Shown here one piece after another: positions 58,566 to 60,605 of a stretch of DNA of 64,000 bases. A program made the translations under genes and the position numbers. Below the pieces are notes generated by a model. It was given only the letters and a program-made list of their open reading frames with translations. It did not search any database and was not told the origin of the DNA. The first letter of the stretch is position 1. The number at the start of each line of letters is the position of its first letter. The stretch covers positions 62,001-126,000 of the forward strand of contig QCDC01000001.1 in assembly GCA_003278805.1 (NCBI GenBank), given 5' to 3'. Source of the DNA: Pelagibacteraceae bacterium AG-349-L17 (GTDB lineage: Bacteria; Pseudomonadota; Alphaproteobacteria; Pelagibacterales; Pelagibacteraceae).

Positions 58566-58642
58566 TGGTGGGCCCGCCAGGACTCGAACCTGGGACCAAT
58601 ACATTATGAGTGTACTGCTCTAACCAACTGAGCTACAGGCCC
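58566..58642 (-). tRNA. tRNA-Ile2(CAT), probable lysidine-modified
   Basis: A 77-nt cloverleaf with acceptor GGGCCTG/CGGGCCC, discriminator A, encoded CCA and anticodon loop CTCATAA (anticodon CAT). C4-G69 and C5-G68 are the pairs that TilS uses to tell tRNA-Ile2 from elongator tRNA-Met, and the TTGGTC variable region resembles ileX. I therefore favour isoleucine (AUA) over methionine. Confidence 0.8.
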
Positions 58643-58701: not shown

Positions 58702-58776
58702 TGGTGGGCCGTGTTGGTTACGCTCCAACTACCCCTGCAATGTCAATGCAGTACTCTTCTATTGAGCTAACGGCCC
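58702..58776 (-). tRNA. Aberrant tRNA-Val(GAC) without D-loop GG and T-loop TTC
   Basis: The 75-nt minus-strand sequence folds into all four arms: acceptor GGGCCGT/ACGGCCC with no mismatch, D stem GCTC/GAGT, anticodon stem CTGCA/TGCAG with loop TTGACAT (anticodon GAC), T stem GTTGG/CCAAC, discriminator A and CCA. The D-loop is AATAGAA instead of a GG-containing loop, and the T-loop is AGCGTAA instead of TTCRANY. G19-C56 is kept; 18-55 becomes A-G and 54-58 becomes A-T. It starts 5 nt after the rpoD stop, with tRNA-Ile2 downstream. Confidence 0.8.
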
Positions 58777-58781
58777 AAATT

Positions 58782-60605
58782 TTAACTTTCTAAAAAACTT
58801 TTTAATTGTTTTGATCTACTTGGATGCTTAAGTTTTCTTAAAGCTTTAGCTTCAATTTGTCTTATTCTTTCTCTAGTTACAGAAAACTGAAGACCAACTT
58901 CCTCGAGTGTATGATCAGTATTCATTCCTACACCAAATCTCATTCTAAGCACTCTCTCTTCTCTTGGAGTTAATGTAGACAAAATTTTTGTTGTTGCTTC
59001 TCCAAGATTTGATTTTATAGCTTGCTCAAGAGGTGCAAGGGCTTTTGTGTCTTCTATAAAATCTCCTAAACTGCTGTCCTCCTCGTCTCCAACAGGTTTT
59101 TCTAATGATACCGGTTCTTTAGAAATTTTTAAAACCTTCCTTACTTTATCAAGTGGCATTCTTAATTTTTGAGCTAACTCTTCTGGAGTAGCCTCTCTAC
59201 CAAATTCGCTTAAAATTAATCTTTGAGTTCTAACAATTTTATTTATTGTTTCTATCATATGAACTGGAATTCTTATTGTTCTAGCTTGATCTGCAATTGA
59301 TCTTGTAATTGCTTGTCTTATCCACCAGGTTGCATATGTTGAAAATTTATATCCTCGTCTATATTCAAATTTGTCAACTGCCTTCATAAGGCCAATATTT
59401 CCTTCTTGAATTAAATCTAAAAATTGAAGACCTCTATTAGTGTATTTTTTAGCAATTGAAATAACAAGTCTTAAGTTTGCTTCAACCATTTCTTTTTTAG
59501 CAATTCTAGATTCTTTTTCTCCTTTTTGAATTCTGCTCACTAATTTTTTAAAATCAGTAACAGATATTCCAAGTTTATGGCTTATTTCAATTAATCTTTC
59601 TCTAATATTTTTAAATTCATCTTTATATTTACTAAAAAATTGCTTCCATATATTATTTGTATCTAAAAATTTTTTTAAATTAGGATTTATTTCATTTCCT
59701 ACGTAAAATTTAATAAATTCACTTCTTTGAATTTTATGATCCAGAGCAAATCGTAGTAAATTACCTTCAAGAGATATTATTTTTTTATTTTCAACATAAT
59801 GTTTTTGAACAAGTTCCTCTAAAACCGATGGAGAGAGCTGAAGTGATTTAATATTTTCTAAAATATCATTTACGATTTTCTCATAACCTTTTTCTTTGGC
59901 AGGTGAAAAGTTTCTAGAATTCAATACACATTCTAGCTTTTCTTTCTGGTATTTTATTAATTTATTATATTCTTTGGTGAGAATATTAATAGTTTTTAAA
60001 ACTTTTGGTTTAATTTCAGTTTCCATGGCAGCAAGCGTGGGATTAAAATCATCATCCTCATCTCCAGAACTTTCTTCTTTATCAGTTTCTCCTGAATTTT
60101 TTTGTTTAGCACTAGGACCAGTAGACTCGTCTTCCATATAATTTGTATCAATATCAATTATTTCTCTCACTAAAATTTCATCTCTGTTGAGTTGATCATT
60201 CCATTCAAAAAATTGTTGAGCAGTTATTGGACTTTGAGAAAGAGCAATTAGCATCACATCTTTTCCGGCCTCAATTCTTTTTGCAATTGCAATCTCGCCC
60301 TCTCTAGAAAGCAACTCAACTCCACCCATCTCACGTAAATACATTCTGATTGGATCATCACTTTTTTCAATTGTTTTTCCCTCTTCCTTACTAGAGTTTT
60401 CTTTTTTTCTTAAAACTTTATAATCTGATTTTTTTTCTACTAAATTAATCTTCTCATCCAAAATATGAATAAATGCTTGAGATAAATTTTCATCAGACAA
60501 ATTTCTTTTACCTAGAGATTTAGATAGCTCTTCATATGTAATAAAGCCTCTATGGGTCCCACGCCCCATTAATCTAGCAAATGATTTAGTAATAATTCTT
60601 TCCAC
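58782..60605 (-). CDS. rpoD: RpoD, primary sigma-70 factor
   Basis: The housekeeping sigma factor. The 607 residues include region 1.2 ([30 protein letters not shown]), an acidic non-conserved insert ([12 protein letters not shown]), regions 2.1-2.4 ([58 protein letters not shown] in pieces), region 3 and the region 4 helix-turn-helix ([23 protein letters not shown]). It follows dnaG by 67 nt, and two tRNAs follow its stop. Confidence 0.98.

Follow-up and report, generated by a model that had tools for sequence, protein, structure and literature searches.

The window analysed here, a 64,000-nt stretch of contig QCDC01000001.1 from Pelagibacteraceae bacterium AG-349-L17, encodes a tRNA-Val(GAC) in which the bases that normally lock the D-loop to the T-loop are exchanged for a different, matched set, and which is very probably a functional elongator tRNA whose altered elbow is internally compensated. 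The GG and TTC motifs of the tRNA elbow are taught as near-universal, and such conserved bases are used to recognise reads or genes as tRNA. In this bacterium, which is free-living and belongs to a very abundant group, two of the 29 tRNAs detected, this tRNA-Val(GAC) and the sole tRNA-Phe, have the alternative A18/G55 set instead. Our reading draws on computed features, namely the fold, conservation, stem compensation, covariation of positions 18/55 and 54/58, single-copy status, and the 18/55 exchange in tRNA-Phe.

ARAGORN places a tRNA-Val(gac) at exactly 58702-58776 on the minus strand, and the gene matches Rfam RF00005 at 51.0 bits (cut-off 29, E 2e-9), so that both detect a gene that an earlier note, made by a model from the letters alone, had thought standard tRNA models may miss. 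The minimum-energy fold is a full cloverleaf of -28.6 kcal/mol that accounts for 72% of the ensemble (z -4.5 against shuffles). The earlier note was accurate in its description of the location, both loop sequences, the encoded CCA, the anticodon loop, the intact cloverleaf, and the remaining G19-C56. Its observation is confirmed and its interpretation is partly supported; it does not mention the A18/G55 exchange, A15/A48, or the lock shared with tRNA-Phe, nor that such loops recur in phages, Patescibacteria, and archaea. Features of the locus are collected in Table 1.

Table 1. Features of the tRNA-Val(GAC) locus, in positions of the window.
Feature	Position	Strand	Basis
tRNA-Val(GAC) gene, CCA encoded	58702..58776	-	ARAGORN, Rfam, fold
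D-loop AATAGAA; A15 at 58762, A18 at 58760 (for G18), G19 kept at 58759	58757..58763	-	sequence, alignment of relatives
Anticodon GAC within loop UUGACAU	58742..58744	-	ARAGORN
T-loop AGCGTAA (A54, G55, C56, G57, U58, A59, A60)	58718..58724	-	sequence, covariation
A48, partner A15; usual R15-Y48 pair absent	58730	-	sequence; A54/U58 association
rpoD (sigma-70) ORF, ends 5 nt upstream of tRNA-Val(GAC)	58782..60605	-	ORF
Adjoining tRNA, CAT anticodon (ARAGORN: Met; probably Ile2), canonical elbow	58566..58642	-	ARAGORN

In standard numbering, the D-loop reads A14 A15 U16 A18 G19 A20 A21, and the variable loop is GGGUA, five nucleotides ending in A48. Three tertiary contacts depart from the norm (18/55 is A/G, 54/58 is A/U, and 15/48 is A/A), so the typical, if not strictly defining, G18-Psi55 and U54-A58 pairs are both missing, while G19-C56, U8-A14, and G53-C61 are retained. 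Valine identity in tRNAs is set by A35, C36, and A73, all of which are present here in the GAC anticodon and the A73-CCA end. Canonical tRNA-Val(GAC) genes from other SAR11 genera (g2, g4, g5, g7, g9) share the cloverleaf, A73-CCA, G19-C56, G53-C61, and U8-A14, and most of them share the anticodon loop. They differ in having G18, U55, U54-A58, and often a standard 15-48 pair, where the window tRNA has A18/G55, A54/U58, and A15/A48.

As an elongator, this tRNA would read GUU and GUC, and its elbow would be rebuilt from different, internally compensated tertiary contacts. A18 would then face G55 at the site of the usual G18-Psi55 pair, U54-A58 would give way to A54 facing U58, and the standard R15-Y48 pair to A15 facing A48. 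The outermost pair, G19-C56, is kept; it forms the flat surface that RNase P and the ribosome recognise. Psi55, m5U54, and Gm18 are all impossible in a tRNA with these bases. Because no promoter-like site was found between rpoD and the tRNA, the two are likely co-transcribed; the tRNA would then be made as the tail of a dnaG-rpoD transcript, released by RNase P, charged with valine, and used in translation. The strict covariation of 18 and 55 makes the structural question of which pair A18 and G55 form a testable one, and a follow-on question is whether the altered elbow still meets RNase P, EF-Tu, and the ribosome.

The rewired gene is well conserved among relatives. Twenty-six of 27 sampled Pelagibacter genomes have one Val(GAC) each, and none was found in the remaining genome (G131). 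The rewired form is present in 24 of the 27, in single copy, always with a GAC anticodon and with near-identical sequence; two genomes (G105 and G109) have a canonical elbow. Because the same loops recur in these 24 genomes and in many separately assembled Pelagibacteraceae records, a base-calling error is ruled out. An alignment across SAR11, which the earlier note had proposed, covered 14 orthologues from six genera, and it showed standard pairs in 100% of stem cells, with double changes at 13 of 21 stem pairs (58 double-change cells observed against 16 in shuffles). G19 and C56 are invariant across the 14.

The only tRNA-Phe(GAA) of the source genome, with D-loop AGTAGTA and T-loop TGCGATT, combines A18/G55 with an ordinary G15-C48 and U54-A58, and the same kind of tRNA-Phe is present at about 35 other Pelagibacteraceae loci. 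Translation is impossible without a tRNA-Phe, and this is the only one in the genome, so the A18/G55 lock must be compatible with elongation.

Beyond SAR11, we scanned bacterial and archaeal genomes for D-arms with A18, blind to the T-loop. Among the matches listed, 27 of 29 distinct ARAGORN-called A18 tRNAs have G55. Besides Pelagibacteraceae, the matches listed include A18 tRNA-Phe of Nomurabacteria, Anaerolineae, and Chloroflexi, A18 tRNA-His of Berkelbacteria, Daviesbacteria, and Microgenomates, and A18 tRNAs of a Verrucomicrobiaceae, cyanobacteria and the related Melainabacteria, Micrarchaeota, and Woesearchaeota. Among these listed non-Pelagibacteraceae tRNAs G55 predominates, also within Patescibacteria, Chloroflexota, and archaea. 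The tRNA-His of Daviesbacteria and Microgenomates (L159, L172) have the whole set of the window tRNA: A15, A18, A48, A54, G55, and U58.

In the reverse scan, phage contigs were picked by the tRNA T-arm alone, and they carry 1375 distinct phage tRNAs. Many phage pattern matches were due to chance, with only 31 of 136 matches to the first pattern falling in ARAGORN-called tRNAs. A18 is present in 122 of 124 phage tRNAs with G55 and in 2 of the 1251 others (Fisher p ~1e-170, for a T-loop-selected sample in which related phages are not independent). The G55 tRNAs span 38 isotype-anticodon labels on 76 contigs. A18 and G55 are thus found together when either side alone is used for selection, which is how we define the A18/G55 elbow class. 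The earlier note had called such loops rare in bacteria, and this holds for the sampled alphaproteobacterial chromosomes, where the A18 D-loop pattern was seen only in the source genus among 385 genomes of the class, but similar loops recur in phage tRNAs. A blastn search against phage records, made to look for a phage origin, gave no match. A literature search found no published reports of A18/G55, older work on tRNAs with randomised D- and T-loops lying outside its scope.

Two other groups of A18 tRNAs were observed in these scans. Three exceptional loci combine A18 with an ordinary U54 U55 T-loop, one from a Rickettsiales bacterium ex Bugula neritina (L142) and two from Micrarchaeota (L165, L203). 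Streptomyces, Streptacidiphilus, and Actinacidiphila have tRNA-Gly(UCC)-like genes with A18/G55 and a poorly paired T-stem (L115, L123, L131, L132, L155, L190, L197, L217), sometimes as multiple close copies next to ordinary tRNA-Gly(GCC) genes.

Positions 54 and 58 also change together. In the phage set, U58 is present in 84 of 113 tRNAs with A54 and in 2 of the 1262 others, so that the covariation of both 54/58 and 18/55 bears out the earlier suggestion of a compensating loop change. Fifty-five phage tRNAs that were not selected by the search patterns have A54/U58 while retaining U55 and G18, and A60 is favoured among them (41/55). Standard 15-48 pairs (G15-C48 or A15-U48) occur in 712 of 963 phage tRNAs with U54-A58 vs 13 of 82 with A54/U58, an association confounded with variable-loop length: the variable loop is 4 nt long in most A54/U58 phage tRNAs, and the few with 5 nt show a weak association (standard pairs in 10 of 15). 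The loss of standard 15-48 pairs alongside A54/U58 fits the geometrical argument made by Westhof et al. 2020 (PMC7566577) that 48 and 54, being on one strand, must move together. The same authors describe R15/A48 and A54/A58 pairs in eukaryotic cytosolic tRNA-Ala and state that neither bacteria nor archaea show them (PMC7566577). Like these tRNA-Ala, the window tRNA has a purine-purine 15/48 contact (A15, A48) together with A54; it differs in having U58 rather than A58 as the partner of A54, and in its 18/55 exchange. A15/A48 with A54 is a bacterial counterpart of the pairs stated to be absent from bacteria (PMC7566577).

On balance, we favour a broader reading in which the window tRNA would represent a second, discrete, and recurrent elbow design, in which A18/G55 takes over from G18-Psi55, and A54/U58, joined by A60 and a non-standard contact between 15 and 48, takes over from U54-A58 with R15-Y48, while G19-C56 is kept. 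The two modules would occur separately or together and would work without Psi55, m5U54, or Gm18; the design would have evolved more than once, with origins in SAR11, Patescibacteria, other bacteria, some archaea, and many phages. This reading is based on strong covariation, but in a selected phage sample without tree correction. A known precedent for tRNAs without the GG and TTC motifs is the metazoan mitochondrial type II tRNAs, in which there is no D/T-loop interaction (PMC7609411). The window tRNA, by contrast, keeps G19-C56, both bases of which are invariant among orthologues, and has 18 and 55 exchanged as a covarying, matched pair, which points to an interaction that is replaced rather than lost.

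Within the family, an RpoD tree of 25 scored genomes shows at least seven switches of elbow state, and the genera g3 and g4 each contain both states. The tRNA-Val of one g1 genome (G026; L055) is identical to those of two g12 genomes (G023 and G048; loci L054 and L056), and because the RpoD of the latter is only ~67% identical to that of the window, this suggests horizontal exchange of the tRNA gene between lineages.

Pelagibacter also appears to have lost enzymes that modify the T-loop. TruB, which makes Psi55, could be detected in none of 18 Pelagibacter genomes, including seven single-contig assemblies that are 99-100% complete (controls 14/14 positive), or in the tested genomes of g2, g3, g4, g6, and g10; it is present in g5, g7, g9, g12, and five other alphaproteobacteria. 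For m5U54, searches of nine Pelagibacter genomes found neither TrmFO nor a TrmA-family match; what resembles TrmFO in the family scores far under the cut-off and is probably MnmG. Examples of Pelagibacter genomes in which no homologue of any of the three was found are G000, G003, G017, G026, G043, G063, and G078, and we found no earlier reports of these losses in the literature. Because TruB, TrmFO, and TrmA are undetectable, Psi55 and m5U54 are probably missing from all Pelagibacter tRNAs, whose T-loops may be unmodified at 54 and 55. These absences suggest a bacterium living without either modification, which may ease tolerance of the alternative lock.

One alternative on the cause, compatible with the functional elongator reading, is that the loops were rewired as the Psi55 and m5U54 enzymes were lost and the advantage of U54 and U55 disappeared. 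The absence of detectable TruB from g1 as well as the five TruB-less genera above, the missing TrmFO and TrmA in Pelagibacter, and the rewired tRNA in four TruB-less genera all fit this account, which we nevertheless consider unlikely. The RpoD tree has one TruB loss against its at least seven elbow changes, independent pairs on it show no association, and canonical elbows persist in many TruB-less genomes. The sister genus g12 keeps TruB alongside the rewired tRNA, so the rewiring does not depend on losing TruB. Given also the lack of association on the tree, TruB loss is a possible permissive factor rather than a demonstrated cause, and as a single cause it found no support in the tree test.

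Another alternative is that the tRNA is dedicated to a non-translational job, with an elbow altered to avoid the ribosome or EF-Tu. The cell-wall tRNA-Gly of staphylococci, extra copies for peptidoglycan synthesis with altered D- and T-loop bases, would be the bacterial model, and changed loops are a hallmark of such tRNAs. A second valine isoacceptor is indeed available: the source assembly (1.22 Mb, 90% complete) has one Val(GAC) and one Val(UAC), and Val(UAC) might read all valine codons, in which case Val(GAC) need not be essential. A search with the tRNA model found no Val(GAC) in 5 of 18 relatives (G012, G032, G042, G008, and G131), whose assemblies are mostly fragmented; these cases may reflect either assembly gaps or a genuine loss in which Val(UAC) serves every valine codon. 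Against a dedicated role, and unlike the extra staphylococcal copies, the window tRNA is the only Val(GAC) found, a search of the source genome for another having returned none, and its lock is shared by the sole tRNA-Phe, which cannot be spared from translation. G19-C56 is retained, the lock recurs on many phage isotypes, and in the long ORFs of the window valine is most often encoded by GUU, with GUU and GUC together making up 59% of valine codons. We regard a non-translational role as very improbable. The earlier note had offered a real elongator, a tRNA with another job, and an RNA-processing signal as options; the sequence comparisons argue for the first, and no positive evidence emerged for the other two.

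The last of these options, in which the locus would mainly be an RNase P signal forming the 3' end of the rpoD mRNA, with its tRNA role secondary, is comparably improbable. The rpoD stop does lie 1-21 nt upstream of the tRNA at most Pelagibacter loci, but the rewired tRNA adjoins other genes in g3, g4, g10, g12, and some g1 genomes, and the anticodon, the discriminator A73, and CCA are all kept, none of which a processing signal needs.

Least probable of all is a decaying pseudogene with drifted loops, for which the replacement of universally conserved loop bases and the presence of Val(UAC) might speak, but which conservation and stem compensation contradict, in line with the earlier note, to which the gene did not look like a decayed one: relatives show neither unpaired stems nor relaxed conservation, the loops are altered in matched fashion in near-identical genes of 24 of 27 genomes, and decay cannot yield the same alternative loops in phages and Patescibacteria. 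Separately, 57 nt from the 3' part of the tRNA-Val recur exactly in one genome, far from its intact gene (L068, G051:C1:397209-397265). This 3' fragment, which is not a whole gene, adjoins a glycosyltransferase-like gene and looks like the attachment-site remnant of a genomic island.
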